64,000 nucleotides of DNA, taken from positions 496,001 through 560,000 of the forward strand of contig NZ_CP070619.1 in NCBI RefSeq assembly GCF_017068395.1, read 5' to 3'. Position 1 is the stretch's first letter; each line of letters starts with the position of its first letter. This document shows, piece by piece, positions 47,909-63,394 of this stretch. The notes beneath the pieces were generated by a model, which worked only from the letters and a program-made list of their open reading frames with translations, ran no database searches and was not told the DNA's origin. Position numbers and translations under genes: made by a program. The stretch is from Rhodococcus pseudokoreensis (GTDB lineage Bacteria; Actinomycetota; Actinomycetes; Mycobacteriales; Mycobacteriaceae).

Positions 47909-48031
47909 ATGAAAATCCACAAGTCACTGCTCATACTGCTACTCGGCGGCACCGCCGCCCTCCGCACGATCCTCCGCCGCCCCACCCCGCGCCGCCGCGG
48001 ACACGGCGTCCCCTTCCACGCCAACGGCTGA
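47909..48031 (+). CDS. Very small protein with N-terminal membrane helix (40 residues)
   Basis: MKIHKSLLILLLGGTAALR begins a short peptide with one hydrophobic helix and a basic tail RRPTPRRRGHGVPF. AAGGAA sits five bases before the ATG, a good ribosome site. Being directly behind a WS/DGAT gene on the same strand, it may be a lipid-body or membrane peptide, or a signal-anchor remnant. No family recognised. Confidence 0.5.
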   Translation: MKIHKSLLILLLGGTAALRTILRRPTPRRRGHGVPFHANG

Positions 48032-48102
48032 CACCATCGATGACGCCACGCAGGTGGGTGGTCGCATGAGTCGATCCAGATCTCAGTGCACACTCGGCCC
48101 GG

Positions 48103-49008
48103 TCAGCGCAGCAAGTCTGAAGCCAACAGCCCCGTCCGAAGTGCTTCATACTCGCCGTCGTCGAGAGCAAGTAGAGGGGACCTCACGGTTCTGTTCTGCA
48201 GGACAGCGAGCAACTGCAGCGCCCCTTTGACCGTCGTCGCACCGTAATTGGGGACACCCATTACCGCACGCAGAGCCGGCTGCAGGCGGGCATTGATCTC
48301 CCGCGCGGTTTCGACGTCCCCCGAGAAGAAGGCCTCGATCATGGCGCGGATCTCGTCGCCCGCCACGTGGCCGAGAACAGAGACGACCCCGCATGCCCCG
48401 TACGCGAGGAAACCCAGGGTGAGGCTGTCGTCTCCCGAGTAGACCGCGTAGCCCAATTCGCGCAGCATGATCGCTTGTGTGGGGTCGCCGGCCGCATCCT
48501 TCACCGCGACCACGGACGGCCAGTCCGCCATCGCCTCGAATGTCGAGGGCGCCAGCTTGGTGCCGGCCCGGCTGGGAATGTCGTAGAGCATGACGGGGGC
48601 ATCGACGGCATCCACTACGTAGCGAAAGTGTTGCAGTATCCCGCCTTGACTCGGCCTGTTGTAGTACGGCGTTACCAGCAGGAGCCCGTCGGCACCCTGC
48701 ATGACGGCCTGGCGCGCCAATTCCAGCGTATGGCGGGTGTCGTTTGTGCCCACCCCGGCAATGATCTTGGCGCGGTTGCCTACCGCGTCCTTGACCACTC
48801 GCAGTATCCGACCATCCTCGGCGGTGGTGGTCGTGGCAGCCTCACCGGTTGTCCCGGACACGACCAGTCCGTCGTGTCCGTGGTCGACCAAGTGCAGAGC
48901 GATTCGAGCAGTCGCCTCCTCGTCGATCTCGCCGTCCACGGTGAACGCCGTAGCCATAGCAGTAAGCACGCGCCCGAACGGAGCGACAGGCGCTGACGGA
49001 AGTGTCAT
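48103..49008 (-). CDS. DapA-family aldolase (second dihydrodipicolinate synthase-like)
   Basis: 301-residue paralogue of DapA. It keeps the pyruvate-binding Lys (VVAVKDAAGD), the Tyr of LYDIPSRAGT, and TTGEAATTTTAEDG and TPYYNRPSQGG loops. It has no lysine genes around it, so it could be a second DHDPS or a related lyase such as a keto-acid aldolase. Differences from the dapA at 28.4 kb are spread through the protein, so it is not a recent duplicate. Confidence 0.87.
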   Translation of the reverse strand: MTLPSAPVAPFGRVLTAMATAFTVDGEIDEEATARIALHLVDHGHDGLVVSGTTGEAATTTTAEDGRILRVVKDAVGNRAKIIAGVGTNDTRHTLELARQAVMQGADGLLLVTPYYNRPSQGGILQHFRYVVDAVDAPVMLYDIPSRAGTKLAPSTFEAMADWPSVVAVKDAAGDPTQAIMLRELGYAVYSGDDSLTLGFLAYGACGVVSVLGHVAGDEIRAMIEAFFSGDVETAREINARLQPALRAVMGVPNYGATTVKGALQLLAVLQNRTVRSPLLALDDGEYEALRTGLLASDLLR

Positions 49009-49118
49009 TGCCCCAGTGTATGCGCCATCAAACGGCGACAGCGTCGACCGAACCGGCTATTCACTGACTGCAACCCATCAGGGTCGCGCGGCGGACGACG
49101 GCCGCCCCGGTCGTAGCC

Positions 49119-49376
49119 GTGACGACCGGTGAGCTGCTCGCGGCCGCCGTCGCGAATCACCACCCTCTCGGACCGGCGGACGAGTTCTCGATCATGCGGT
49201 GCGGCAGCATGATCGGGGCACCAGGCTGTTCTGGAGTGGTTCTGGCACAGGATGTCAGGCCTGGAGACGTGGTGGCATCGGTCAGTCGCGACGGCAACGA
49301 TCTGGTGGGCTCGGCCGCTGCCGTCTCCGTCGCCCACGGCCGCATGCACGAGCTCACAACCGAACAGTCCCGGTGA
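49119..49376 (+). CDS. Hypothetical protein (85 residues)
   Basis: A GTG-initiated frame of 85 codons with VLAQDVRPGDVVASVSRDG and no recognised domain. Codon third positions are moderately GC rich, lower than neighbouring genes, and the ribosome site is weak. It ends 64 bases before the aldehyde dehydrogenase ATG. It could be real or chance; otherwise the 432-base gap 49009-49440 shows nothing but the dehydrogenase ribosome site GAGGAG. Confidence 0.3.
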   Translation: MTTGELLAAAVANHHPLGPADEFSIMRCGSMIGAPGCSGVVLAQDVRPGDVVASVSRDGNDLVGSAAAVSVAHGRMHELTTEQSR

Positions 49377-49440
49377 CTACCCACGGCAGCACCTCATCGC
49401 GCGTAATACTGGGGTACCCGACCTTCCGAGGAGACGCGAC

Positions 49441-50784
49441 ATGAGCCTGTACGCAGTAGTGGACCCGGCCACCGGGAAGACGGTGCGCGAATACCCGACC
49501 GCCACCGATGAGGAGATGCAGGCGGCGTTGTCCGCGGCGGACAAGGCACACCGTGAGTGGTCGCGGCGCTCGACGATTTCCGAGCGCGCTGGACTGCTCA
49601 CGCGAGTCGCCGAGTTACACACCGAACGCCGCGACGAACTGGCCAAGATCATCCAGCGGGAGATGGGCAAGCCACTCGATCAGTCGCTGGGGGAAGTGGA
49701 CTTCAGCGCCGCGATCTACCAGTACTACGCCGACAACGCCGAGAAGTTCCTCGCCGACGAGCCCATCGACCTGGTCGAGGGCACCGGTTCCGCGCTGATC
49801 CGGCGGCGCTCGATCGGTGTGCTGATCGGCATCATGCCGTGGAACTACCCCTACTACCAGGTGGCCCGGTTCGCGGGTCCGAATCTGGCGCTGGGCAACA
49901 CGATCGTGCTCAAACACGCACCGCAGTGTCCCGAATCGGCGGCGGCGCTGCACCAGATCTTCAGCGACGCCGGATATCCGGAGGGCGCCTACGTCAACGT
50001 CTACGCGACCAACGAGCAGATCGCCGACGCGATCGCCGACCCGCGGGTCCAGGGCGTGTCGCTGACCGGGTCCGAGCGTGCGGGTGCGGCGGTCGCCGAG
50101 ATCGCCGGACGCAATCTCAAGAAGGTGGTGCTGGAACTCGGCGGTTCCGATCCGTTCATCGTGCTCAGTTCCGATGACCTCGACGCCACTGTCAAGGCGG
50201 CAGTGGAAGGCCGTTTCGAAAACACCGGGCAGGCCTGCAACGCAGCGAAGCGATTCATCATCGCCGAGGACCTGTACGACGATTTCGTCGGCAAATTCAC
50301 CGCGGAAGTGCTCGCCTCTGCTGACGGCCTCGCGCCGCTGTCGTCGGTCGCCGCCGCCGACCGACTGGCCGAGCAGGTGAAGCAGGCGATCGCCGAGGGC
50401 GCCACCCTCGAGTCCGAGGGTGAACGGCAGGGAGCCTTCTTCCCACCCGCCGTGCTGACGAATGTGTCGCCCGATTCGCGCACGTACCGGGAGGAACTGT
50501 TCGGGCCGGTAGCGACCGTCTACAAGGCAGGCTCCGAGGCCGAGGCCGTCGAACTGGCCAACGACACCCCGTTCGGTCTCGGCTCGTATGTCTTCACCAC
50601 CGACCCCGCTCAGGCCGACCGCGTCGCCGACTCGCTGGACGCGGGCATGGTGTTCGTCAATGCCGTTGGCGCCGAAGGAGTCGAGCTGCCGTTCGGCGGC
50701 GTCAAACGCTCAGGCTTCGGTCGCGAACTCGGCAAATACGGGATCGACGAATTCGTGAACAAGAAACTCATCCGCATCAGCTGA
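49441..50784 (+). CDS. NAD(P)-dependent aldehyde dehydrogenase (succinate-semialdehyde type)
   Basis: 447 residues. Oxyanion Asn in IMPWNYPYYQ, NAD-binding LTGSERAGAAVAE, ELGGSDPFIVL with the general base Glu, and catalytic Cys in NTGQACNAAKRF. Closest by motif to GabD1/SSADH enzymes, which start at residue VDPATGKT like this one. Substrate not certain. ATG at 49441 with GAGGAG nine bases upstream. Convergent with the hydrolase gene. Confidence 0.92.
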   Translation: MSLYAVVDPATGKTVREYPTATDEEMQAALSAADKAHREWSRRSTISERAGLLTRVAELHTERRDELAKIIQREMGKPLDQSLGEVDFSAAIYQYYADNAEKFLADEPIDLVEGTGSALIRRRSIGVLIGIMPWNYPYYQVARFAGPNLALGNTIVLKHAPQCPESAAALHQIFSDAGYPEGAYVNVYATNEQIADAIADPRVQGVSLTGSERAGAAVAEIAGRNLKKVVLELGGSDPFIVLSSDDLDATVKAAVEGRFENTGQACNAAKRFIIAEDLYDDFVGKFTAEVLASADGLAPLSSVAAADRLAEQVKQAIAEGATLESEGERQGAFFPPAVLTNVSPDSRTYREELFGPVATVYKAGSEAEAVELANDTPFGLGSYVFTTDPAQADRVADSLDAGMVFVNAVGAEGVELPFGGVKRSGFGRELGKYGIDEFVNKKLIRIS

Positions 50785-50877
50785 TATCGCTGCGCGCCGT
50801 GCCCGGCGGTGGGACGGGAGAGCAGACCGGAGGAATCGCAGGACGAGCTTCCAACGGCCGGCTACATTCGAGCGGCT

Positions 50878-50949
50878 CGATGTCTTCAGCGGCGGATCGC
50901 GACAACGTCTTCGTCGAGGAACCCCTTCAACCCGCCGCTGAAGACATCG
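50878..50949. repeat. Perfect 18-base inverted repeat at the end of the hydrolase gene
   Basis: cgatgtcttcagcggcgg (50878-50895) and ccgccgctgaagacatcg (50932-50949) are exact reverse complements with a 36-base spacer. The left arm covers the hydrolase stop codon and the right arm codes for its DVFSGG. Between convergent genes, it can work as a terminator with a large loop, and its exactness suggests a recent templated copying event. Confidence 0.8.
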
Positions 50950-51785
50950 TTGTCGTCGCCGGCCACCATGTGACCCGCACCGGTGACGTCGATCAGCTTG
51001 GCGGTCGGGATCAGTTCGAGCAGCTCTTTCGCGCCTTCCTCACTCACCACGTTGGATTGCTGGCCACGAACGAGCATCGTGGGAACGGTGATCGCGGCCG
51101 CGGCGTCCCGAGCGCGTTCGTATCGCACGATCGAGTCGGATTGGCGAGTGGGTTCGTCGCCGACGCGAAGGAACTCCGGATCCCAATGCCAGTACCAACG
51201 GCCATCACGCAGGCGAAGATTCTTGCGCAACCCCTGCGGGTTGGGCTTGCGGACACGGTTCGGGGTGTACGCCGCGATCGCTGCTGCCGCGTCGTCGAGG
51301 CTCGCGAAACCCTCGAGGCCACTGCGCATGAAGGCCATGATCTCCGCGGTACCGCTCGTCTCGACCTTCGGCGCGATATCGACCAAGACCAGACCGCAAG
51401 CGAGATCGGGATTCTCCCCCTGCCCGATCAACGACGTCATACCGCCCATCGAGGCACCGACGAGAACCGGCTTCTCCCCCAGCCCTGCGATGACCGAGGT
51501 CAAGTCGGCGACCAACGCATCGATGCCGTAATCCCCGTCCGGCGCCCACTGACTGTCCCCATGCCCACGGGCATCCAGCGCAATGGCGGACCAGCCGTCC
51601 GCCGCGAGGCTGCGTCCGGTGTTCCGCCAGGAATGCCGGGTCTGCCCGCCGCCGTGCAGCAGCAGGACCAGGCCCTTTCTGTCGACGCCTGATCCGCCGG
51701 CACTGGGTGTCGGTGGATCCCACCGGTCGGCGGCAAGCATGACACCATCACCGGCGAATTCGGATTGTGCGACTACGGGATCCAT
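50886..51785 (-). CDS. Alpha/beta-fold hydrolase
   Basis: 299 residues. Oxyanion loop LLLHGGGQTRHSW, nucleophile elbow GASMGG, acid in MLVRGQQSNVVSEE region and catalytic His in VTGAGHMVAGDD. Like esterases and C-C or epoxide hydrolases; substrate unknown. ATG 51785 chosen because GAGGAA lies five bases upstream; an ATG 11 codons earlier lacks this. The last codons fall in the 18-base inverted repeat, so the C-terminal 20 residues may be altered relative to homologues. Confidence 0.88.
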   Translation of the reverse strand: MDPVVAQSEFAGDGVMLAADRWDPPTPSAGGSGVDRKGLVLLLHGGGQTRHSWRNTGRSLAADGWSAIALDARGHGDSQWAPDGDYGIDALVADLTSVIAGLGEKPVLVGASMGGMTSLIGQGENPDLACGLVLVDIAPKVETSGTAEIMAFMRSGLEGFASLDDAAAAIAAYTPNRVRKPNPQGLRKNLRLRDGRWYWHWDPEFLRVGDEPTRQSDSIVRYERARDAAAAITVPTMLVRGQQSNVVSEEGAKELLELIPTAKLIDVTGAGHMVAGDDNDVFSGGLKGFLDEDVVAIRR

Positions 51786-51839
51786 GGAGTTCCTCACCAA
51801 CATCATCGAGTCGAGCATTCTCCATCATGGTGCACCACG

Positions 51840-51859
51840 GGGTGAACAGTAATTCACCC
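51840..51859. promoter_or_regulatory. Inverted repeat upstream of the hydrolase gene
   Basis: gggtgaa-cagtaa-ttcaccc, seven-base arms and a six-base spacer, 55 bases upstream of the hydrolase start. A plausible operator in its promoter region; regulator unknown. Confidence 0.45.
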
Positions 51860-52204
51860 GGTGCCGGTGTTGTGCGTCGCCACAGCTGTATGGCGGTGGC
51901 CGAATCCCGGCTCGGCAGATTCGACGGCTTCAGACTTCTGCGCCTTCTCCCTCGTCGACAACGGTCCGCAGTGCGCGTATCGCGGCGAAGGCAGCTCGCG
52001 GCGGGTCCAGACATCGCCGAACAGCACATCGTCGTCGGCTCCGGGTCGCAGGGCCGAGGGAGGTACTGCGATTACCCGGAAGAGCAGGCACTCCCGCGGG
52101 CGAGCTCACCCGCCTTTACTGAGTGAGACCGCGAACCTGCCCGGGCGCATCCCGTCAGATCTCCGCGCACTTCGACCTCGCCGCCGACAACTGAGGAGAA
52201 CCTC
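51860..52204. other. Gene-free region upstream of the cupin gene
   Basis: About 345 bases in which no frame has a ribosome site, recognisable domain or consistent codon use. The only clear element is GAGGAGAA directly before the cupin ATG. It probably contains the cupin promoter. Confidence 0.4.
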
Positions 52205-52618
52205 ATGGAGTTCATCACCCCCGTCCCCACGGGCAAGGGGCCGGCCGGACAATTCACCGGCGACGTCTGGTACGACGTCATCTACGCAGGTAAGGAACCC
52301 TCGCGGGTACGGACGAACATGGTTCGATTCTCCCCCGGCGCCCGCACGTTCTGGCATCGCCACGTCCTCGGGCAAACCCTGCACGTCGTCTCCGGTGTCG
52401 CGCTGGTCGGCACCCGCGACGGTGTCGTCTTCGCAGCCCACCCGGGCGAGACCGTGACCTGTCCCGCCGGTGAGGAGCACTGGCACGGCGCCGCCGAAGA
52501 GCGGTTCATGGAACACCTTGCGATCTGGGAAGGCGACGGTTCCGGCGCGCCGGAGACGACCTGGCTCGAGGAAGTCACCGACGTGCAGTACCACGCACCG
52601 CGCACCCGCCGCTCCTGA
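52205..52618 (+). CDS. Cupin-domain protein
   Basis: 137 residues, single double-stranded beta-helix. Metal motif 1 is FWHRHVLGQTLHVVSG, motif 2 is PAGEEHWHGAAEE. It resembles the cupin carboxymuconolactone or hydroxynitrile lyase-like small cupins; the reaction is unknown. ATG with GAGGAG eight bases upstream. A truncated oxidoreductase remnant follows, so the original two-gene unit is broken. Confidence 0.87.
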   Translation: MEFITPVPTGKGPAGQFTGDVWYDVIYAGKEPSRVRTNMVRFSPGARTFWHRHVLGQTLHVVSGVALVGTRDGVVFAAHPGETVTCPAGEEHWHGAAEERFMEHLAIWEGDGSGAPETTWLEEVTDVQYHAPRTRRS

Positions 52619-52634
52619 ACGATCCGAACACCAC

Positions 52635-52807
52635 AAAAGGAGGTCGCCTGCGCGCTGCCGACAGGCCTGCTCGCCGAACACGTCGTGCTCGACCATGTCG
52701 TGGGGCAGACGTTCGCAGACTGCCTGCGGGCGACGAAAGAGGAGCGGGCTGCCGATCGGCTGCGTTCCGGTGAGGCGCTCGGAAAGATCGTGATCACCCT
52801 TCCCTGA
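52635..52807 (+). pseudogene. C-terminal remnant of a quinone oxidoreductase-like gene
   Basis: An excellent Shine-Dalgarno aaaaggaggt (52635-52644) is followed not by a start codon but by the open frame ALPTGLLAEHVVLDHVVG and ending SGEALGKIVITLP, the usual C-terminus of zinc-independent MDR oxidoreductases. The frame has no ATG or GTG near the ribosome site. The simplest reading is an internal deletion that removed the start and most of the gene, leaving its ribosome site and its last 50 codons. Family assignment rests on the tail only. Confidence 0.5.
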
Positions 52808-52878
52808 CACCCGTTGCGGCGGTGACGCCGCCAGTGACGAGTTCGGCGACGCCGCGCCTGGAACCGGCGGCGACTCCG

Positions 52879-53634
52879 ATGCGACATGATCGGGTCGTGG
52901 CGATATTCAACGACTACGACAAGTACGCGTCGGCGTACGACGCCGACATCGAGGACAACGTATATAACGCGTTGTACGAGCGACCGGCGACGTTGGCGCT
53001 GGTCGGCGACGTCGCCGGCCGGAGGGTGCTGGATGCGGGCTGCGGCAGCGGTGTGCTGTCGCAGGCGCTCGCCGCCTCGGGCGCTGCGGTAACCGGCGTC
53101 GATCTCAGCACGAACCTGCTCGCGATCGCCCGGCACCGCCTGGGACCCGACGTCCCGTTGATCCAGGCAGATCTCGACCAGCAGTTGCCCATCCGGTCAT
53201 CGACCTTCGACGTCGTGGTGGCGTCGCTGGTGATGCACTACCTCCACGACTGGTCGGGACCGTTGTCCGAGTTTCGACGGGTCCTCGCGCCGGGCGGGTG
53301 CGTCATCATCTCGACGCATCACCCGTTCGTGGACTTCAGGCCGTCCGGGCAGGGCGACTACCTCGGAACGTTCGAGTTCACCGAGGAATGGGTGAAGTCC
53401 GGTGAGAGGTTCCTCATGAGGTTCTGGCACCGGCCGTTGCACGCCATGTTCGACGCCTTCACCGCGGCGGGATTCACCGTCGAACGTGTCTCGGAGCCGC
53501 GCCCCGGTGCCGCCGTGCGCGATCGCTCTCCGGAACTGTTCGAGCAGCTCGGCCGTGAAGCCCCGTTCATCTTCTTCATTCTGCGCAGCGACGACCGCGA
53601 TCCCTCGCCGGCCGGCGAGACGCCGTCACGGTAA
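52879..53634 (+). CDS. Class I SAM-dependent methyltransferase
   Basis: 251 residues. SAM motif I is VLDAGCGSGVLSQALA, motif II VTGVDLS, post-motifs FDVVVASLVMHYLHDW and LAPGGCVIIST, as in UbiE/BioC-like small-molecule methyltransferases. The substrate is unknown. Start uncertain: ATG 52879 is used; GTG 52822 and GTG 52897 are alternatives and none has a clear ribosome site. Its end overlaps the opposite small membrane gene by nine bases. Confidence 0.82.
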   Translation: MRHDRVVAIFNDYDKYASAYDADIEDNVYNALYERPATLALVGDVAGRRVLDAGCGSGVLSQALAASGAAVTGVDLSTNLLAIARHRLGPDVPLIQADLDQQLPIRSSTFDVVVASLVMHYLHDWSGPLSEFRRVLAPGGCVIISTHHPFVDFRPSGQGDYLGTFEFTEEWVKSGERFLMRFWHRPLHAMFDAFTAAGFTVERVSEPRPGAAVRDRSPELFEQLGREAPFIFFILRSDDRDPSPAGETPSR

Positions 53635-53832
53635 ATGCATCAGCTTTCCGGCGAGGGTGAAGAGTCGGCGGGCGAGCCTCATGACGGGCAGGCCCAGAGG
53701 GATCAGGAGGATCGTCACGCACAGTATCCCGCCGACGAGCCACACCACGGCCGCGACGATCCCGAGCACCGTGCCGAGCACGGCCGTGAGAATTCCCAGC
53801 ACCACATCGAGCAGGCCCCGTATCAATCGCAT
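53626..53832 (-). CDS. Small membrane protein (68 residues)
   Basis: Nearly all hydrophobic: LLDVVLGILTAVLGTVLGIV and WLVGGILCVTILLIPLGL form two helices, then a basic amphipathic end RLARRLFTLAGKLMHLP. AGGAGGT six bases before the ATG at 53832 fixes the start. Function unknown; it lies just downstream of the membrane kinase gene, 84 bases away on the same strand, so they may share a transcript. Confidence 0.7.
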   Translation of the reverse strand: MRLIRGLLDVVLGILTAVLGTVLGIVAAVVWLVGGILCVTILLIPLGLPVMRLARRLFTLAGKLMHLP

Positions 53833-53916
53833 GATGACCTCCTGGTTCCAGTCTGCGCGCATGCCCACCGGATCGCACCCGTCGAAAGTGGCCCGCATCA
53901 GAGATTCTCGGTTGCG

Positions 53917-56130
53917 TCAGACCACCCGCTCGAGTGCGCGGACGTCCGCGTCCAGTTTCCTGTACAGCCAGTACACGGCGACGAACGCGAGCCCGGAGGC
54001 CGCGCACAACCCCAGGACCGAATCGCGCACCAGTGGCAACTCCTCGGGTTCGAGGGTGCTGAATCCGGCCAGGACACCGACGAGCGGCACAGATGCCGTC
54101 ACCGCCAGATACACCGTCGTCCTTCGGCGCAGCCCGCCGAGAACGTCGGCGTCGTGCGCCGTCGTGAGCCCGTGTCGCAGATAGATGGGATAGACGCAGC
54201 GCACGATGTAAAACGTCGACAGGAAGAATGTGTAGGCGACGGAGATCCCAGCCGCCACCAGAGTGGTCGTCACCGCATGGACCTGCAACCGAGCAGGGAG
54301 GTCGGTCAACCACCGCATCGCCCCCACCCCCCACACCGTTGCCAAGACCCAGGACAGCAACGTGTTCATCGCACACAGGTCGCCCCAGAACAGTGTTCGT
54401 GACCGAACCCGTGCGAGGACGGCCTCGTCGTAGCGTCTGCCGCTACGCAGGCCGCGGGGCACAGCGAGCAGATCGCGGGACATATAGGCATAGATGACGA
54501 CGGCCAGCGGGAGGAAGCAGAGGATGAAAACGACGACGGCAGCGTAGAGCTGCGCATAGATGGCATCGGACAGCCGCTCGTTGAGCAGTTCCTGCAGGTG
54601 CACGGCGAAATAGATCGTCGCAAGGCCGACACCTACCCATGACGACGTCCACAGGATGGGGGTGGGCCACTGCGACAGTCGCGCCCGCCAACTGTTCGGC
54701 GGCGGATAGACCAGGTCCCGGGACCGCTTCTCGAGGCACAAGTCCAACTGCTGGGCCAATTCCGAACCGCTCGGATAGCGGTCTTCGCGGTCGGGCGACA
54801 GGCATTTCAGCAGTACCCGGCGCAGGGCCATCGGGCAATCCGGCGGAAGCTCCGACAGGAACTGCGCATCCACGGGCCTGCGCCGCAGTTCGAGCATGCG
54901 GGCCAGCGACGTCTCCGACTCACCGGCCGTGGTTTCGTCCGCGAACGGCCGACGTCCGGTGAGCAACTCCCACAGCATGACCGCGAGCGCGAAGATGTCG
55001 CTTCGGGTGTCGAGGTCGGCGGCGGTGGTCGGTGAGCCCGGGTGGCAGGCTTCGAGCTGTTCGGGTGACATGTAGGCCAGTGAGCCACCGAAATACGCCA
55101 GCGGACTGGTGCCCTTGATTCGTTGGCTGGAGCTGACGTTGAAGTCGGCCAGCTTCGGAATCCCCTCGGCGCTCAGCAGCACGTTCGCCGGTTTGATGTC
55201 TCGATGCAGCACCCCGCGTTCGGAGGCGTGCCGAAGCGCGTCGGCAAGCCGGCGGCCCAGCCAGGCCACCGTCTCCGGCCACGTCAGGGAGGCGATCCGT
55301 GTTCGAACAGCGGATTCGGTCGGCCGCACCTCGCCCTTGGCGGCAAGGACCCCGTCGACGGCGTCGAGCAGCAGTTGCCCACTCCGGTGTTCCGTCGGCG
55401 TCGAGCGCAGTAGATGTACCACATCGAGCAGCGTTCCCCCCGGCAGATACTGCATGTAGAGCAACTTCAACTCGCCCTCGGCAATCAGTCGCTGGTCGTA
55501 GATGCGCACGATGTAGTCGTGATCCAGCTGCGCGAGGGTCTGCGGCTCGATGCCGTGGTTGTGGGAAATCTTGACCGCGACGAGTCGCTGCATCGATTGT
55601 TGCCGCGCTAGATATACCTGGGCGAAGGCGCCGGACCCGATCCTCATCAACAGGTCGAAGTCGTCGACACGGTCGCCGACGTCGATGTTGCCGAGAACAA
55701 CCTGTGCGCGCGGTCGAGCGATCATGGTGCTGCAGTAGTCATCCGTGAACTCTTCGGGTCCCCGGCCGCCCACCATGGTGGCAGCCTCGGCGGCCATGGT
55801 GGCCGCATCGGCTTCGGGCGTACTGCGACGCCGGGCGTGAAATTCCTCGTAGACCAACTCGGCGGGAAGCGGTCCGTCCTGCAGTTCCGCGAACTCCGCT
55901 CGGTACTCGGTCAGTCGTTTGGGAAAGTCGTAGCGAAGCCAGCGGTATTCGAGGTCGATCTTGATCAGTTCGATCAGTATCGAACGTCGCTCAGCGGGTT
56001 CGCGGGGTAGGAAGGCGGACAGGTCAGGCGGGCACCCGGACCCCCACGCGTCCGAAAACCGTGCCACGACGGTAGCAAGCGCTGTGCGGGTTCGTTCTGC
56101 TGATTCGACCAGGTCGGTCGGCTCGTACAT
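53917..56130 (-). CDS. Membrane Ser/Thr protein kinase of planctomycete-like architecture
   Basis: 737 residues. Residues 20-85 form an N-terminal module with FSDAWGSGCPPDLSAFL, ILIELIKIDLEYRWLR and LTEYRAEF, a layout I know from planctomycete kinases and not from the mycobacterial Pkn family. The kinase core spans about 158-460: glycine loop GSGAFAQVYLA (165-175), Lys187, EPQTLAQLDHDYIVRIYD, HRD at 309-311, Asn316, and DFN (329-331) in place of DFG. The C-terminus has about six membrane helices (470-720). It lacks PASTA repeats. Catalytic residues are intact. Divergent from an orphan MCE gene. Confidence 0.88.
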   Translation of the reverse strand: MYEPTDLVESAERTRTALATVVARFSDAWGSGCPPDLSAFLPREPAERRSILIELIKIDLEYRWLRYDFPKRLTEYRAEFAELQDGPLPAELVYEEFHARRRSTPEADAATMAAEAATMVGGRGPEEFTDDYCSTMIARPRAQVVLGNIDVGDRVDDFDLLMRIGSGAFAQVYLARQQSMQRLVAVKISHNHGIEPQTLAQLDHDYIVRIYDQRLIAEGELKLLYMQYLPGGTLLDVVHLLRSTPTEHRSGQLLLDAVDGVLAAKGEVRPTESAVRTRIASLTWPETVAWLGRRLADALRHASERGVLHRDIKPANVLLSAEGIPKLADFNVSSSQRIKGTSPLAYFGGSLAYMSPEQLEACHPGSPTTAADLDTRSDIFALAVMLWELLTGRRPFADETTAGESETSLARMLELRRRPVDAQFLSELPPDCPMALRRVLLKCLSPDREDRYPSGSELAQQLDLCLEKRSRDLVYPPPNSWRARLSQWPTPILWTSSWVGVGLATIYFAVHLQELLNERLSDAIYAQLYAAVVVFILCFLPLAVVIYAYMSRDLLAVPRGLRSGRRYDEAVLARVRSRTLFWGDLCAMNTLLSWVLATVWGVGAMRWLTDLPARLQVHAVTTTLVAAGISVAYTFFLSTFYIVRCVYPIYLRHGLTTAHDADVLGGLRRRTTVYLAVTASVPLVGVLAGFSTLEPEELPLVRDSVLGLCAASGLAFVAVYWLYRKLDADVRALERVV

Positions 56131-56238
56131 CGGTAACTCGGAGTGCAGCCCCGTGCGATCACACGGCGGCTACGCGCGGTACGGCGACGGGTCGTTGTTG
56201 CCCCACATTGTGTCCTTCCGCCGAATTTCCCCCTCAAG

Positions 56239-56255
56239 CGTATCGCTCCGATACG
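56239..56255. promoter_or_regulatory. Palindrome in the kinase-MCE divergent gap
   Basis: cgtatcg-ctc-cgatacg: a perfect 17-base inverted repeat in the 308-base gap between the kinase and MCE starts. It could be a shared operator. The rest of this gap shows no other clear element. Confidence 0.45.
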
Positions 56256-56438
56256 GGCGCACGGGCGCCGAAACGGCGGGGACCGCACCGCCGAAGCCGA
56301 GAGTGGCCGAGAATTTGTCGGCACCTGGGCCGATGCGGCACCACATCCACCCTGTGCGAGGCACGATGGACCGGGAGGTTGGCGCATATCGACGCGGTCT
56401 CGGCGGCCACCACCGACGGCGATCGTGAGGGTGGTCGA

Positions 56439-57794
56439 ATGAACGACACGGCATCCGTCGTAAGCCGACGGGTACTGGGGTTGGTGTTCTTCCTCGTCCT
56501 CGCGCTGTTCCTGGCAGTCTCGTTCGCAATCTTCGACAAGACCTTCACCAAGGTCGTGGAGATCGACCTCGTCACCGACAGCGCCGGAAACGCATTGGCA
56601 CCCGACGCGGATGTAAAGCTCCGTGGCCTCATCGTCGGCGAGGTGCGCTCGGCGTCCTCCCAGGAGGGCGAGGTCACGCTCGCTCTCGCGATCCAGCCGG
56701 ACAAGGCACCGCTGATCCCGTCCAACGCGACGGCGCGGCTGCTGCCCAAGACGCTGTTCGGCGAACGCTATGTCTCGCTGATCGTCCCGGAGGGCGACAC
56801 GGCCCCGCCGATCCAGGCCGGCGACACGCTGCGCCAGGACAAGAGCGACAACACCGTCGAGGTCGGCGAGGTGCTGGACGGCCTGCTGCCGCTCCTGCAG
56901 GCGATTCCGCCGCAGGACCTGGCGAACACGCTCGGGGCGCTGTCCCAAGGTCTGAGCGGACGCGGCGCCGAACTCGGGCTGACACTCGACCGTCTCGAAA
57001 AGATCTTCGGCGCGCTGAACACCGAACTTCCCGCCATCCAGGAGGATCTGCGCGGCCTGGCGGACTTCTCGCAGACGTATTCCGAGGCGGCGCCCGATCT
57101 GGTCAACGCCCTCGACAACCTGCGGACCACCGGAAACACCGTGGTGGAGAAGCAGAATGAGATCGCCACGCTGCTCGCGACAGTCACCGGGACAAGTGCG
57201 TCCACCGCGGACCTTCTGCAGGCGAATTCCCGGAGCATCGTGACGATCGCCTCCGACTCGCGTGAGGCGCTGCAGCTCCTCGGCCGCTACTCACCGAGCT
57301 TCGGCTGCACCCTGGCGGCCTTCGTGCGGGCGGCGCCGATCGCCCTCGAGTTGCTCGCGCTCGACGATCCTCATCCCGGCGGGCGAGGCACCGTGCAGTT
57401 CGTCAACCCGAAGGGCCGCTACCTACCCAACCAGGACGAGCCGCGCCTGCTCGACAACCGCGGACCGGCTTGCTACGACAACGTCACCGCACCCGGCGGG
57501 AGGTTTCCGCAATACCCGGGCGGATCGTTCAACGACGGCTCCTACCAGGTGCCCACGCGGAATCCTGGACCGTCGGCCATCGAGTACTTCCCTGCGCCCG
57601 CCGGCGTCCCCGATCAGGTTCCCGGGTACGGAGCCCAGGTCACCCCCGCAAGTTACCCGGGTTCGAAGATGGAACAGGACACCCTGGATGTCGTCTACGG
57701 CGAGGCCGGCGGCATGGCACCGGAGGACGTGCCGAGCTGGACGACACACATCGGCGCGCCGACCCTGAGGGGCGCCGAGGTGACCTTCGAATGA
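56439..57794 (+). CDS. Orphan MCE-family protein
   Basis: 451 residues. An N-terminal membrane anchor (VLGLVFFLVLALFLAVSFAIF), the MCE/MlaD domain at about 38-115 (VEIDLVTDSAGNALAPDADV, VKLRGLIVGEV, TLFGERYVSLI), a long helical needle region, and a Pro/Gly-rich C-terminal domain. MCE proteins form lipid or sterol shuttles with YrbE permeases, but no yrbE or other mce gene is adjacent, so it must work with partners elsewhere or alone. ATG 56439 has GAGGG upstream. Confidence 0.88.
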   Translation: MNDTASVVSRRVLGLVFFLVLALFLAVSFAIFDKTFTKVVEIDLVTDSAGNALAPDADVKLRGLIVGEVRSASSQEGEVTLALAIQPDKAPLIPSNATARLLPKTLFGERYVSLIVPEGDTAPPIQAGDTLRQDKSDNTVEVGEVLDGLLPLLQAIPPQDLANTLGALSQGLSGRGAELGLTLDRLEKIFGALNTELPAIQEDLRGLADFSQTYSEAAPDLVNALDNLRTTGNTVVEKQNEIATLLATVTGTSASTADLLQANSRSIVTIASDSREALQLLGRYSPSFGCTLAAFVRAAPIALELLALDDPHPGGRGTVQFVNPKGRYLPNQDEPRLLDNRGPACYDNVTAPGGRFPQYPGGSFNDGSYQVPTRNPGPSAIEYFPAPAGVPDQVPGYGAQVTPASYPGSKMEQDTLDVVYGEAGGMAPEDVPSWTTHIGAPTLRGAEVTFE

Positions 57795-57826
57795 CGACGC
57801 GGCTCTCGAACCCCTGCGGGACGATC

Positions 57827-58450
57827 TCAGAGCGCCGCCGCCAGCGTGCCGACTCCCGGTCCGTCGAGGTCGTCCAGCGCCACCTTCCGGCCGGATACGG
57901 CCAGAAGGAGGGACAGGGCACTGCCGCTCACGTGCGGACCGTCGCCGATCGATACGTCGGCGTCCGCGGCCGTCAGCCGGACACGAGCGACAAGTTCCTT
58001 GGCGCCGCCGAAGGACGCCGGGGTGCGCGTCTGCAGGCGGAGTGATCTGACGACTGCCTCCGCCGGGTAGGAGCGGGTGAGGCCCAGCGGTCGACGAATG
58101 TCCTCACCGTGCACGACCTCCTCGACGAGCCGGCTGTCGAGGGGCGCCGGGGGTGTCGACGTGCGCGACGCCACCCGGCGAAGCCGCTCCAGCGTCTCCT
58201 GCGGCGAGGCACCGCGTTCGCGTTCCACGCCGCGAGCGTTCTGGCGGTCGAAGTCGAACCGCGCCCGGGCGAGGCCGACCACGAACCCGAGGCGCGTCGT
58301 TCGAGCCGTGTCGACCAGGTGAGCGACCACGTCGTGGACGGTCCACTCGCCGCAGAGCGACGGCTCGTCCCACCGCTCGGCGTCGAGGTTCACGAGGTCG
58401 TCGATCAGCGCGGCACGCTCCGCATGCACCATCGACCAGACATCTTCCAC
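57827..58450 (-). CDS. Maleylpyruvate isomerase-family mycothiol-dependent protein
   Basis: 207 residues. The MDMPI N-terminal bundle shows LCGEWTVHDVVAHLVDTAR with the metal His, and VEEVVHGEDIRRPLG the second His. C-terminal MDMPI_C domain follows. Probably a mycothiol-dependent isomerase or transferase. ATG at 58450 with GGAGAGA upstream. Convergent with the MCE gene, 32 bases apart. Confidence 0.85.
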   Translation of the reverse strand: MEDVWSMVHAERAALIDDLVNLDAERWDEPSLCGEWTVHDVVAHLVDTARTTRLGFVVGLARARFDFDRQNARGVERERGASPQETLERLRRVASRTSTPPAPLDSRLVEEVVHGEDIRRPLGLTRSYPAEAVVRSLRLQTRTPASFGGAKELVARVRLTAADADVSIGDGPHVSGSALSLLLAVSGRKVALDDLDGPGVGTLAAAL

Positions 58451-58566
58451 GGCTCTCTCCTTCGGTCCGACGCACCGTCTGCCGGGTAGGACTCCCCGAC
58501 CCGCGGAAAATCATCGGTCACCCGGTCGCGGGTTCGACGTCCGGCAACCCGGGTTCGAGTGTCCGG

Positions 58567-58719
58567 TCAGGACCGGCGATCGTCGCAGACTTCGGCTCGC
58601 CCGTCGAATGTGCACGCGCACACAGAGTTCGGCTCCGATCCCCCGAACAGAGCGACGGCCAATCCCAGGACACCGATGCCGCCGGACAGCACGGCACCGA
58701 GCAGGAATACGTCAGGCAT
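58567..58719 (-). CDS. Small membrane protein with Cys-containing tail (50 residues)
   Basis: MPDVFLLGAVLSGGIGVLG begins one membrane helix, then FGGSEPNSVCACTFDG and a polar end with a third Cys (AEVCDDRRS). GGGGGAGGT lies six bases before the ATG, a strong ribosome site. It is 79 bases downstream of the MFS gene on the same strand and may be its operon partner. No family recognised. The repeats gggttcga...tccgg at 58530 and 58551 lie just after its stop. Confidence 0.55.
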   Translation of the reverse strand: MPDVFLLGAVLSGGIGVLGLAVALFGGSEPNSVCACTFDGRAEVCDDRRS

Positions 58720-58798
58720 CAAGCGACCTCCCCCTTGTCTCGTCCCCCATTACAACAGGTCTGCCCTCGGCCAGTAGCCCCGGGCCCACCCGAGAGAT

Positions 58799-60019
58799 TC
58801 AGCGCGGCGGGCTCGACTTCGGGAGGAGCGAGAGGACGAGGGCCAGCGCCGTCAGGGCGAGGACGAGCACGGCCACGCCGGCCCAGTGTCCGCTCGCCCA
58901 GGCGATACCGCCGACCCAGCCGAAGAGGCTGGATCCGGCGTAATAGGAGACGTTGTACAGCGCCGTTGCCTGCGCCCTGCCCGTTGTCGCGTGCGCGCCG
59001 ACCATGCCGGACGCGACGGCGTGGCCGACGAACAGTCCGGCGGTCACCGCGGCCAGACCGAGGAGGATCGTGATCAGCGATCCGTCGAGGCTCAGGACCG
59101 TCCCGCCTGCCATGAACGTGCAGGCCAGCACGAGCACCGTTCGGTGGCCGAGCCGTCCCACCATCCAGCCCGCGGCGCGGGAGCCCGCGGTGCCCGCCAG
59201 GTACGCAAGGAAGATCAGCGACACCACCGTCGGCGCCAGATGGTAGGGGGCTGCCTCGAGGCGGAAGGGAAGGTAGTTGAAGACCGCCACCATGCCGCCG
59301 ACGAGCAGCGCACCGATGCCGAACAGTGCCAGCATCCGGACATCCCGCAGGTGAACCGCGAGACTGCCGCTGGACGGGACGGCGGAGCGCCGCCCCTGCC
59401 CGGCGGGTAACAGCACGATCAGGACGGCCATCAGAATCGCCACGCCCACTCCGAGAATCGCCAGCGCGGGACGCCACCCGAGATGATCCGCCACCGGGAC
59501 GACCAGAAGCCGACCACTCAGCCCACCCAGAGATGTTGCGGCAACGTAGGAACCGGCCAGCACCGCCGTCCGTGCCGGAGCCGCGACCTCGTGGAGCAGC
59601 GTCATCGCCAACGCGGGTAGTCCACCGAGCGCCACGCCCTGCACGAAGCGTCCCGCCACCAGGGCCTCGAACGTGGGAAGCCAGGGAACGGCCACGGCGA
59701 GCAGCCCGGCAGTTGCCGCCGCATATCGCATCGCGGTGGGACGCCCGACTCGATCCGAGAACCGGGCCCACGGCAGCACCGACAACGCCAGCCCGAGGGT
59801 GGCCGCCGAGACCAGAAGCGAAGCCTGTGCGGCACTGACGGAGGCGTCGTGCCCGATCTGCGTAAGGAGGCCCTGCGGCGCATACATCAACGCGAAGGTC
59901 GCCAGGCCCGCACACCACAGGGCCGCCGAGAGTCGCCGGTCCCGATTCGACTCCGTCGGCACCTCTCGAGAGGCCACCGGCTCGCGGGTGCCCTTCTCGG
60001 TGAAATGCGTGGCGGACAT
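58799..60019 (-). CDS. MFS transporter
   Basis: 406 residues with 12 hydrophobic segments; the cytoplasmic loop motif after helix 2 is FSDRVGRPTAMRY. AraJ/YnfM-like exporters have this layout. Substrate unknown. ATG at 60019 is chosen because the upstream extension is a polar stretch over the divergent promoter; ATG 60079 is possible. Divergent from a LysR gene, its likely regulator. Confidence 0.87.
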   Translation of the reverse strand: MSATHFTEKGTREPVASREVPTESNRDRRLSAALWCAGLATFALMYAPQGLLTQIGHDASVSAAQASLLVSAATLGLALSVLPWARFSDRVGRPTAMRYAAATAGLLAVAVPWLPTFEALVAGRFVQGVALGGLPALAMTLLHEVAAPARTAVLAGSYVAATSLGGLSGRLLVVPVADHLGWRPALAILGVGVAILMAVLIVLLPAGQGRRSAVPSSGSLAVHLRDVRMLALFGIGALLVGGMVAVFNYLPFRLEAAPYHLAPTVVSLIFLAYLAGTAGSRAAGWMVGRLGHRTVLVLACTFMAGGTVLSLDGSLITILLGLAAVTAGLFVGHAVASGMVGAHATTGRAQATALYNVSYYAGSSLFGWVGGIAWASGHWAGVAVLVLALTALALVLSLLPKSSPPR

Positions 60020-60052
60020 GCCCTCGACGGTAAAGCGACGCGACCGATGAAT

Positions 60053-60066
60053 CCAATGCATGTTGG
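60053..60066. promoter_or_regulatory. CCAA-N6-TTGG site between the MFS and LysR genes
   Basis: ccaatgcatgttgg lies in the 71-base divergent gap, 25 bases before the LysR start. A dyad of this length is compatible with part of a LysR-type binding site, although it is short. Confidence 0.35.
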
Positions 60067-60090
60067 GCGCAGAACTCATACAGTTGGGTC

Positions 60091-61029
60091 ATGAATAGCG
60101 AGGCGGTCAAGGCCCTGCTGCCACACCTTCCCGTCCTCGTCGCCCTCGGCGAGGTCGAACACGTGACCGTTGCCGCCGCGATGCTCGGTATGCCTCAGCC
60201 CACGGTCAGCCGGATAGTCCGCCGGCTGGAGAAGCAACTCGGCACACCACTCCTGGAACCGGACGGGCGTGGCGTCCGGTTGACGGATGCAGGCCGGACA
60301 CTGGTGCCGTACGCGCAACGCGCACTCGAGGCGGTGGTGGACGGCCTCGACGCCGTCCAGTCGCAGGACCGAAGGACGCGGGCAACCGTCCGCATCGCGT
60401 TTCAGACGTCGCTCGGCGAGCACCTCGTGCCCGAGTTGATTCGGATCGTCCGCGCGGAGGATCCGGCGATCCGTTTCGTCCTCAGCCAGGGCGCGCGCCG
60501 CACGTGCCTGAACACCCTCGTCGACGGGGAAGCGGACATCGCCCTCGTCTCTCGCCTCAACCCACCGCCGGACGGACTGACGGTCACGCCGCTGTTCGAA
60601 CAGCCACTCGTCGTCCTGGTGCCCTCCGACCACCCGCGGGCCGCCTCGACATCGACGACGATCCGCGACCTCGCATCCGAGCCGATCGTCACGCTCAAGC
60701 CGGGCTACGGCCTCCGCGGGTCCGTCGACGACCTGTTCGCACGGGCCGGCGCCCTCCCCACGATCGCGTTCGAAGGCGAGGACCTGCGGACCGTGTCGGG
60801 CCTGGTGGCATCCGGCTTGGGCGTCGGCATCATGCCGGCCGCCGACACTCCCCCACCCGGCTGCGCGCAGATACGCCTCGACGATCCCCGGGCGACCCGG
60901 GACATCGGTGCCGCGCTGCTGCCCGGCGCCCCACGCGACGCGGTCACCACGGTGCTCACCGCTCTCGTCGCGCTCACCGCGAGGGACAACCGTCACGACG
61001 AGCAACCGAACCCGAGGAAGTCGACGTGA
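60091..61029 (+). CDS. LysR-family regulator
   Basis: 312 residues. HTH at about 18-62 (VAAAMLGMPQPTVSRIVRRLE) and LysR substrate domain with FQTSLGEHLVPELIR and LVPSDHPRAA. Likely controls the divergent MFS transporter. Its TGA overlaps the GTG of the decayed phosphatase gene (GTGA), so the two were once coupled. Confidence 0.9.
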   Translation: MNSEAVKALLPHLPVLVALGEVEHVTVAAAMLGMPQPTVSRIVRRLEKQLGTPLLEPDGRGVRLTDAGRTLVPYAQRALEAVVDGLDAVQSQDRRTRATVRIAFQTSLGEHLVPELIRIVRAEDPAIRFVLSQGARRTCLNTLVDGEADIALVSRLNPPPDGLTVTPLFEQPLVVLVPSDHPRAASTSTTIRDLASEPIVTLKPGYGLRGSVDDLFARAGALPTIAFEGEDLRTVSGLVASGLGVGIMPAADTPPPGCAQIRLDDPRATRDIGAALLPGAPRDAVTTVLTALVALTARDNRHDEQPNPRKST

Positions 61030-61620
61030 ATCGCGAACACTTCAACTGGACTACGGACTGCGGTTCGATTGGGCCTCGCCGTCGGGCGCAGCCGAGCGAC
61101 GAACGGCCAGATCAGCTTGTCGCCGAACACGATTCGACGCACCACCGCGCCGCGCCGGCTGGTCTTCCCGTCGCCGAACGGATCGAGCATCTGCTTCGAG
61201 CTCGGCGCCGAAGCCGGGGTGTGCGTCGGCGCCTCCCTACGGAATGCGACCGCGGTCGCCGGCTGGATCGCCCGGCACTACCCGCCGACGACGGTGGTGG
61301 CGGTGATCGCCGCCGGTGAGAAGTGGCCGGGCGGCGAACTCCGGCCCGCGATCGAAGACCTGTGGGGTGCGGGCGCCGTGATGTCCGCACTGACCGCGGC
61401 CGGCTGGGACGCCGAAGCGTCGCCGGAAGCACGGATGGCCATCGCCGCCTGTCGCGCCGTCGCGGACACCCTCCCGCAGTCTCTCGCGGCATGTGCGTCG
61501 GGACGAGAATTGCGCGCAGCGGGATACCCGGAGGACGTCGCCATCGCCGCCGAAGTCGACCGGAGCACCGCCGTACCGGTCCTCGAGGATCGGGTCTTCC
61601 GAGGACGCAAGGCCGGTTGA
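61026..61620 (+). pseudogene. Decayed 2-phosphosulfolactate phosphatase-like gene
   Basis: The C-terminal 180 codons read LAVGRSRATNGQISLSP, RRLVFPSPNGSSICFELG and CVGASLRNATAVAGW, clear 2-phosphosulfolactate phosphatase (ComB) sequence. The N-terminal pieces are in other frames: VNREHFN from the GTG at 61026, then LDYGLRFDW, the normal start of the protein. The roughly 60-residue segment that should join them, with the VVVDVLSFTT active-site strand, is absent, and the two pieces meet at about 61075. So there is a frameshift and an internal deletion. An internal ATG at 61069 could make only the C-terminal domain. Confidence 0.6.
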
Positions 61621-61631
61621 CCGCCGGATGG

Positions 61632-62597
61632 TCAACCGCTGACGGTGACCGTCACGTTGCCGACCTTGTGGCCGAGGTCGACGTATCGGTGTGCGTCGAC
61701 GATCCGATCCATCGGGAAATTGCGGTCGACGACGACGCGAAACCCATCGGACTCGATCAGTTCCTTCACATAGGCAAGTGCGCTCTTCTTCTCGACGGAC
61801 ATCCCCGGTCGAACGGTCCTTCCGCCGCGCAGCGCAGTCCACGCACCGAGCGGCCAGTTGATCAGACCGGTTGTGGGGAGGTAACAGCCGTGCGGCGTGA
61901 GTGCCCGTCGGCATCGCGCGAACGAAGTCGGGCTGACGGTGTCGAAGATGACGTCGTAGGCCGCCTCGTGGGAGGTGAAGTCTTCCGTGTGGTAGTCGAC
62001 GACGTGGTCGGCGCCCAGGTCGGTGACCAGATCGGCGTTACGGGACCCGCACACCGCGGTGACTTCGGCGCCGAGGTGTTTGGCGAGTTGCACCGCGGCG
62101 GTTCCGATGCTCCCGGAGGCGCCGTTGACCAAGACGTGCCGGCCGCTGCGGACGTGTGCCTTGTCTCGAAGGAAGTACAGTGCCGTCGAGGGTCCGTCGA
62201 CCGCGGCGGCCGCCTCCTCGAAGCCGATGCCGACGGGCTTCCGTTCGAGCGATCCGGACTCGGGCAAGCAGACGTGTTCGGCGCACGCACCCAGATGGAA
62301 TCCGGCGAATCCGAAAACCTGGTCGCCGGCAGCGAATCGGCGCACGTCCGCGCCCGCAGCGTCGATCTCTCCGGCAAATTCGAGCCCGAGAATCCGCCGA
62401 TTCCTCCGCGGCCGAGTGACGCCGAGGACGACACGCCCCCAACGGGGCAACCCCCGGCGCATCAGGGTCTCCGCCCTCGTCACCGTCGTCGCGTGCACAC
62501 GCACCAACACCTCGTCCGGCTTCGGTGTGGGTCGCGCAACCTCGCGGACGCTGAGGACTTCCGGCGGTCCGTATTCGGAGTACATGACTGCCTTCAC
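61632..62597 (-). CDS. Zinc-independent quinone oxidoreductase-like MDR enzyme
   Basis: 321 residues, NAD(P)H-dependent. NADP motif VNGASGSIGTAAVQLAKHLG, N-terminal MDR domain with ILGLEFAGEIDAAG and no zinc ligands, C-terminal NVTVTVSG. Start: GTG 62597 with GGAGGAGG eight bases upstream gives MKAVMYSEYG, the conserved beginning; a TTG six bases earlier is the alternative. It converges with the decayed phosphatase gene with 11 bases between. Confidence 0.87.
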   Translation of the reverse strand: MKAVMYSEYGPPEVLSVREVARPTPKPDEVLVRVHATTVTRAETLMRRGLPRWGRVVLGVTRPRRNRRILGLEFAGEIDAAGADVRRFAAGDQVFGFAGFHLGACAEHVCLPESGSLERKPVGIGFEEAAAAVDGPSTALYFLRDKAHVRSGRHVLVNGASGSIGTAAVQLAKHLGAEVTAVCGSRNADLVTDLGADHVVDYHTEDFTSHEAAYDVIFDTVSPTSFARCRRALTPHGCYLPTTGLINWPLGAWTALRGGRTVRPGMSVEKKSALAYVKELIESDGFRVVVDRNFPMDRIVDAHRYVDLGHKVGNVTVTVSG

Positions 62598-62941
62598 CGG
62601 CAAATCCTCCTCCCGAAAGCTCGTCCGAGATCGACGCCGCGGTTGATCCCATCATCGCCCAACCTGACGCCGAGCGGACGCGCCGCTGGGCGATGACGCG
62701 GCGTTGCCGATCGCGTGGGATGTTCGACGACCGCTGCGGGATCGAGCGCAGGAGAAATGCGACGACCCTCGCGAATCTCGAAGATCCTGATCGACGGACG
62801 CGAGCTGATCGCCGGCCGCGGGACCGTCGTTCTCATCCGCGAAGCCATAGGATATTGAGAGCACGTCAAGAGCGTCACACCTCGGTGTCCCGGCGCCTAT
62901 GCTGACCCGCACACGCACGCTCTCGTCGAGGGAGGCCCGGG
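62598..62941. other. Divergent gap with one possible tiny gene
   Basis: 344 bases between divergent genes. A 33-codon frame at 62757-62858 (+) begins MRRPSRISKILIDGRELIAG and ends IREAIGY, with AGGAGAA three bases before its ATG, slightly close for a ribosome site. The rest has no clear gene. Confidence 0.3.
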
Positions 62942-63394
62942 ATGTTCATCCTGCTCCGGCACGCCCATGCGATAGGAAAGCAAGACTGGAGCGGGTCCGA
63001 CGCCGACCGGCCTCTCAGCGCGCTCGGACGTGACCAGGCCACCGGCCTCGTCGCCACGCTCACCGGAGTCGAGTTGCGTGTCCTGTACTGCAGCCCGACC
63101 ACCCGCTGCCTCGACACCCTCGCACCCTTGGCCGCCGGCTACGGCTTGCCCATCCACGAGCATCCGCTGCTCGGCCCGGATGCGGTTCCCGACGAACTGT
63201 GCGCCGCGCTGGACACGATCGACCTCGACGGCACCCTGTGGTGCACCCACGGGGAAGTCCTCACCGGGCTGGCCGCATGCACCCGCGCTGATGGAACACG
63301 CATGTACCCCATCGGGCAGACGGCCAAGGGCGGAGCCTGGCTGCTGAATTCACATGCCCCACTGCGCTATATCGACCCCGTCCCACCGCAGTAG
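62942..63394 (+). CDS. SixA-like histidine phosphatase
   Basis: 150 residues of the phosphoglycerate mutase-like fold. The RHA catalytic motif is LLRHAHAIGK at residues 4-13, with LYCSPTTRCLDTL and the second His in LWCTHGEVLTGL. SixA members dephosphorylate phosphohistidine on relay proteins; the target is unknown here. ATG at 62942; GAGGGAGG lies upstream. Confidence 0.88.
   Translation: MFILLRHAHAIGKQDWSGSDADRPLSALGRDQATGLVATLTGVELRVLYCSPTTRCLDTLAPLAAGYGLPIHEHPLLGPDAVPDELCAALDTIDLDGTLWCTHGEVLTGLAACTRADGTRMYPIGQTAKGGAWLLNSHAPLRYIDPVPPQ

Follow-up and report, generated by a model that had tools for sequence, protein, structure and literature searches.

A planctomycete-type DFN kinase paired with an orphan MceA-type gene in Rhodococcus

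Introduction

How Mce transporters choose their lipids, and how they are regulated, is an open question. It is raised by a locus in a 64,000-nucleotide stretch of the Rhodococcus pseudokoreensis genome (contig NZ_CP070619.1, positions 496,001 to 560,000; hereafter the window), in which a gene for a serine/threonine kinase with DFN in place of DFG (53917 to 56130, minus strand) and a lone MCE gene (56439 to 57794, plus strand) stand head to head. What is an MCE gene without permease partners doing beside such a kinase? An initial annotation, made from the letters alone, had proposed two answers: a signalling unit that controls envelope lipid traffic, or a transferred kinase that had settled next to an MCE gene. 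Here we report that the MCE gene is, judging by its sequence, an orphan, alternative MceA, and that its codons 61 to 240 are homogenised with an operon MceA by recurrent gene conversion within genomes, most weakly in this one. The kinase belongs, as sequence comparisons support, to a planctomycete-type DFN group. The pairing is characteristic of Rhodococcus and has outlasted at least one shift in genomic surroundings.

Results

An orphan MceA with a twin in a complete operon

The MCE gene encodes 451 residues from its probable ATG start at 56439, the start position also found in five aligned orthologs; the longest listed open reading frame (ORF) begins upstream, at a TTG at 56208. Pfam models place MlaD at about residues 41 to 115 and Mce4_CUP1 at about residues 123 to 343. 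The 9.87-Mb genome gave 31 MlaD matches (30 above the cut-off), which make up five six-gene clusters and the window gene as the sole outsider. No YrbE homologue was detected in the window by tblastn at 1e-6 with two operon YrbE proteins as queries. The initial annotation was right that no yrbE partners lie alongside, but the protein closely duplicates an MceA whose complete operon is located at another site in the genome, and it therefore need not act alone. This twin, at 86% identity, is the product of the leading MCE gene, which we take to be mceA, in the operon at G000:C6:6686725-6698434, G000 being the window's genome; besides its six MCE genes, the operon encodes an ABC ATPase and two MlaE permeases and has another two genes. 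Identities to the first MCE gene of the other operons are 33, 31, and 27% in three, with no match at 1e-3 in the fourth. At the DNA level, similarity between the orphan and operon mceA loci covers only the gene and about 25 bases upstream. The frame is complete in all six orphan copies compared, and the ratio of nonsynonymous to synonymous divergence (dN/dS) between species is 0.16 for the orphan versus 0.06 for the operon copy.

A gene-conversion mosaic

The two copies were compared in six genomes in which both are complete. Over codons 61 to 210, mean third-position identity is 90 to 95% within a genome versus 73 to 80% between genomes, regardless of whether orphan is set against orphan, operon against operon, or one against the other. 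Synonymous divergence (dS) between the copies of one genome is 0.01 to 0.19 in codons 61 to 240 (56619 to 57158, plus strand), compared with 0.54 to 1.25 in codons 241 to 330 (57159 to 57428, plus strand). A tree of codons 61 to 240 pairs the orphan with the operon copy of its own genome in four of the six (support from 85/89 to 100/100) but does not resolve the pairs of G000 and G016. For this segment, the approximately unbiased (AU) test rejects a clade of orphans (p-AU, 3.5e-53). In the tree of codons 241 to 330, orphan and operon copies form two clean clades (100/99). Third-position identity, the dS contrast, and the two trees together are the signature of repeated gene conversion that ends near codon 240. 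By Pfam boundaries, the converted block spans the greater part of the ring domain and the beginning of the needle. Sixteen differences between orphan and operon copies are fixed, one of them a one-residue gap: 15 lie at 253 to 451, one lies at 33, and none lie in 61 to 240. In a Mycobacterium-like genome (G055:C1:3109768-3136139), we also observed two MceA-type genes (L248 and L249), 75% identical and about 25 kb apart, without a conversion mosaic.

The pair across genomes

Among 101 genomes searched, the MCE gene adjoins the kinase gene in all eight same-genus genomes with a kinase ortholog (at least 85% identity), that is, in seven besides the window's own. Four of the eight are also in the named collection, as R. 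koreensis, R. wratislaviensis, R. tibetensis, and R. jostii. The MCE gene is cut by a contig end in two of the eight (G021 and G024), breaks of the kind that near-identical copies would presumably cause. In G013, similarity to window positions 48001 to 63000 is limited to 53913 to 57799, with nothing else in 14 kb; the shared segment reaches four bases beyond the kinase stop at one end and five beyond the MCE stop at the other and is thus an exact two-gene block in another context. On the kinase side, the setting of G013 is also that of G021, and a third setting is seen in G024. Because the two genes form an exact block in a different setting, the suggestion of a signalling unit gains some support; control of lipid traffic by the pair is plausible.

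In Nocardia, by contrast with the genus-wide pairing, no relative of the window MCE gene was detected at 1e-8 at any of 22 ortholog loci (at least 75% identity), each covered for 4.2 to 6 kb on the MCE side; a more distant MCE gene could escape this threshold. The result fits the idea of a transferred kinase that came to rest beside an MCE gene, but a topology test does not establish transfer out of Nocardia (p-AU, 0.078). NiFe hydrogenase genes follow the kinase ortholog in Nocardia vinacea and N. pseudovaccinii (L022 and L023), a universal stress protein (Usp) gene lies nearby in six other of the 22 loci, and a GAF histidine kinase lies nearby in one. The hydrogenase and Usp neighbours hint at a role in energy or dormancy. 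Prescottella equi (L044) has a family member of 57% identity that stands head to head with a gene for an amidase.

A planctomycete-type kinase

For comparison, a planctomycete set was assembled with a constructed query that itself carried DFN and the short spacing; it matched 4,725 proteins at an E value of ≤0.001, of which the best 120 were listed. Eleven of these 120 name an organism, in every case Isosphaeraceae bacterium, Singulisphaera, or Tundrisphaera, which we take to be planctomycetes, and one further entry (P0225) carries a clone code containing PLA. The window kinase domain matches all 120 listed proteins at an E value of <1e-3, with a best score of 196.7 bits, whereas its highest score with the 36 other kinase regions in the genome, of which 31 carry HRD, is 77.9 bits. 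In the reverse direction, all 120 score the window kinase above the best of those 36 regions (medians of 177 versus 62).

Spacing within the catalytic core gives the same picture. From the β3 Lys to the β4 His there are 17 residues in 109 of 109 measured family members (of 110) and, with a query that itself had short spacing, in 114 of 116 measured proteins (of 120) of the planctomycete set (29 in the other 2), versus 26 to 28 in all 28 measured ordinary kinases (of 36) of the same genome. From the β4 His to HRD, there are mostly about 105 residues in both the family and the planctomycete set versus 63 to 69 in ordinary kinases; an insert of about 40 residues ahead of the catalytic loop is common to the window family and Isosphaeraceae-type kinases. 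DFN occurs in 109 of 110 family members, the remaining one having DFG, and in 110 of the 120 planctomycete entries gathered with the DFN-bearing query (10 gave no motif match). Since the query for that set already contained this pattern, some of the motif sharing is due to selection; the scores and the tree rest on real sequences. In a quick tree, 34 family members and 21 planctomycete-set proteins are separated from the genome's 31 ordinary kinases with a Shimodaira-Hasegawa-like approximate likelihood ratio test (SH-aLRT) value of 99; the search was run without bootstrap, drew a long-branch warning, and included only the planctomycete set and this genome's kinases. Kinase-domain identity to two aligned Isosphaeraceae-type examples is 39% and 40%. 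The suspected planctomycete affinity was thus supported, and the kinase lies outside the ordinary kinases of its own genome.

A likeness to planctomycete kinases had also been proposed for the N-terminal module (residues 8 to 100; 55831 to 56109, minus strand), and here the outcome was mixed. A profile hidden Markov model of the module scored at least 10 bits with 9 of 113 planctomycete-set N termini (median, 6.0; maximum, 14.5), compared with 0 of 2,260 shuffles (maximum, 5.5) and 0 of 336 other pieces, and hhalign gave a probability of 82. Single-sequence phmmer with residues 1 to 147 found 0 of 120 in the same set, which weighs against homology.

Domains and membrane part of the kinase

The kinase ORF has an ATG start and encodes 737 residues, comprising the N-terminal module, a kinase domain at about 148 to 470, and a six-helix membrane domain at 489 to 736 (feature 489 to 737; 53920 to 54666, minus strand). 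Its catalytic residues are K187, E195, HRD at 309 to 311, and DFN at 329 to 331. The Lys, Glu, HRD Asp, and DFN residues are invariant across 36 aligned family members, and we therefore expect the kinase to be catalytically active. In the predicted model, the C-terminal helices span 489 to 519, 522 to 550, 582 to 608, 613 to 651, 658 to 690, and 698 to 736; a separate model of the C-terminal part alone agrees on six helices (mean predicted local distance difference test score, 88). No Pfam model reaches its cut-off in this domain (the best, Colicin_V, scores 15.1 bits versus the 29.3 needed), and a comparison with PDB structures gave no clear match. Pfam finds kinase models only in the protein, and no PASTA. 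The length, the DFN, the roughly six C-terminal helices, and the lack of PASTA were all as the initial annotation had read them. The same genome has 45 kinase-domain matches, many within open frames of more than 1,000 residues.

Distribution of the kinase family

A protein search with the kinase returned 4,653 proteins at an E value of ≤0.001 from 7,995 scored candidates. Among the best 120, those with an organism name belong to Nocardia, Rhodococcus, Prescottella, Antrihabitans, Hoyosella, or "Nocardiaceae bacterium," and the closest named relative is from Rhodococcus koreensis (92% identity). A scan of genome contigs, with 80 loci kept, adds one [Mycobacterium] manitobense record (L097). Of the 101 relatives, 34 genomes match at an E value of ≤1e-20, all inside the window's own taxonomic family; two of these (G030 and G060; 76.5 and 78.5 bits) score at the level of ordinary kinases. 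Among 396 phylum-wide genomes, with two candidates scored in each, four match at an E value of ≤1e-25: three from the same family, including the window's genome, and one that proved on inspection to be an ordinary DFG kinase. On these two samples, the family is confined within the phylum, as far as sampled, to the Nocardiaceae and near kin. Its proteins are annotated under generic names such as "serine/threonine-protein kinase."

The window's genome holds five family loci. Three relatives are 50 to 55% identical to the window kinase, although in one the match starts only at residue 98; a fourth is split on contig C2 (G000:C2:156104-157989; L015, L016, and L157) into two matches of 65% and 42% identity, probably a decayed copy. 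No MCE or YrbE relative was detected at 1e-6 in the regions around the four paralogous loci. Elsewhere, DFN family members are clustered in some relatives (G042:C18:150719-164498, G048:C30:63438-67722, and G046:C28:12156-22590).

The intergenic region

The two divergent genes are separated by 308 bases (56131 to 56438), the gap that had been reported, given the ATG at 56439. What had been called a perfect 17-base palindrome is present at 56239 to 56255 as an inverted repeat, CGTATCG-CTC-CGATACG, with seven paired bases in each arm and a three-base spacer. It is perfect in one of the eight orthologous intergenic regions, with five-base arms kept, as read by eye, in four of the eight, which weakens the case for a conserved operator.

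Discussion

We postulate, with a probability of about 0.55, that the locus is a two-gene cassette, in which an exchangeable MceA for the operon at G000:C6:6686725-6698434 is joined to a planctomycete-type membrane kinase that tunes the cassette or the transporter. The proposal builds on direct observation of the kinase family and its signatures, the orphan status of the MCE gene, its operon twin, the gene-conversion mosaic, and the block-like linkage. The orphan would retain the operon subunit's ring and near needle and supply its own far needle or portal part; by analogy, it may take the place of the operon subunit, and hexamers built with it may handle a different lipid. The catalytic portion of the kinase would lie in the cytosol and its six-helix membrane portion would bear no large external domain, and the enzyme would most likely sense the state of the membrane or its lipids. 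Control of the transporter by the kinase is a guess. Since the MCE protein appears to expose only about 12 residues to the cytosol, MceG/YrbE or a regulator would be likelier targets than MceA itself. A bolder version, in which the cassette is a self-contained substrate switch, with a membrane-sensor kinase governing the alternative MceA while conversion keeps the ring and near needle interchangeable and leaves the lipid-entry end free to diverge, strikes us as unlikely.

Several points weigh against the cassette. The conversion signal in the window's genome is the weakest of the six, with the highest dS (0.19), a pair that the tree of codons 61 to 240 does not resolve, and a longest identical run of 65 nucleotides, shorter than the 132 nucleotides reached by one pair from different genomes. 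Evolution is also faster in the orphan than in its operon twin. Action of the kinase on any Mce protein is something that we infer. Flanking genes are also common to G001, G006, G016, and G019, so that linkage in these four of the seven other genomes proves little, and the 22 Nocardia loci indicate that the kinase works without the MCE gene. An alternative hypothesis draws on the same facts: the two genes may be functionally unrelated, the kinase having landed beside a duplicated mceA in the ancestor of one Rhodococcus group and the block having been inherited and moved together by chance. The varied Nocardia neighbourhoods, the paralogous loci without MCE or YrbE relatives, the poorly conserved palindrome, and the shared flanks all agree with it. 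Against chance stand the pairing in eight of eight genomes and the exact block in G013, with the same kinase-side context in G021 and a third in G024, and we regard mere coincidence as a serious but doubtful explanation.

It is improbable that the orphan serves as a reservoir for conversion, decaying or silent and with the giving or receiving of sequence as its main effect, rather than as a working subunit. Repeated homogenisation of codons 61 to 240 and the faster evolution of the orphan would suit such a copy, but all six frames are full, dN/dS is 0.16 between species, and 16 fixed differences have been retained outside the converted block. Still less credible, to the point of being very nearly dismissed, is the reading of the kinase as an ordinary actinobacterial PknB-type enzyme with drifted motifs. 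Among solved structures, the kinase comes closest in sequence to PknB (78.7 bits), and the PknB/Stk1 PASTA family model (NF033483, PknB_PASTA_kin) does match at 136.9 bits; this score is far under the cut-off of 450, however, and both the tree and the β3-to-β4 spacing set the kinase apart from ordinary kinases.

Comparison with known systems

PknB is membrane anchored, and PknB-type kinases carry PASTA repeats. The window kinase shares the Hanks-type catalytic core with the PknB/PASTA kinases of Actinomycetota but lacks PASTA; those kinases have DFG, and the ordinary kinases of the same genome have a longer β3-αC stretch and no insert. The Isosphaeraceae-type DFN kinases (e.g., P0141 and P0166) resemble it in the DFN, the short β3-αC segment, and the insert of about 40 residues; for the N-terminal module, a weak profile likeness stands against a negative single-sequence search. 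They differ in that most of the 120 listed proteins carry Pfam accessions that are presumably of the TPR type, where the window family has the six-helix membrane domain instead. The Nocardiaceae and near kin thus hold, under generic names, a branch of planctomycete-type kinases with a membrane domain that no Pfam model reaches.

For the MCE gene, the comparison is with MSMEG_6540 (oMce1A) of Mycolicibacterium smegmatis, which is reported to be an orphan 80 to 84% identical to Mce1A that competes with it for a place in the hexamer, has the major part in palmitate uptake, and differs from it mainly at the C-terminal substrate entry (PMC10517005, PMC9882608). Replacement of the operon Mce1A by oMce1A in the hexamer is likewise reported (PMC10517005). 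The window orphan is alike in being a lone MceA paralogue highly similar to an operon MceA, with differences concentrated C-terminally. Unlike oMce1A, it is copied from the MceA of another operon and is paired with a kinase. For the window orphan, the six-genome comparison also shows a conversion mosaic. Against 8fed_A, which from the Mce1 structure paper we take to be M. smegmatis Mce1A, the orphan and its operon twin score 120.4 and 121 bits, and three of the four other MceA proteins of the genome score 241.6, 198, and 67.5. Two of them exceed the twin, so the closest operon relative of the orphan is not Mce1A, which speaks against orthology with oMce1A. An oMce1A-like anatomy with a different parent operon points to an independent duplication, and by this analogy the orphan probably works like oMce1A as an exchangeable subunit of separate origin. 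A second orphan MceA, apparently of independent origin, in which the front is conserved and the far end distinct and which is physically linked to a membrane kinase, makes the question of how Mce transporters choose and regulate their lipids testable in a laboratory Rhodococcus.

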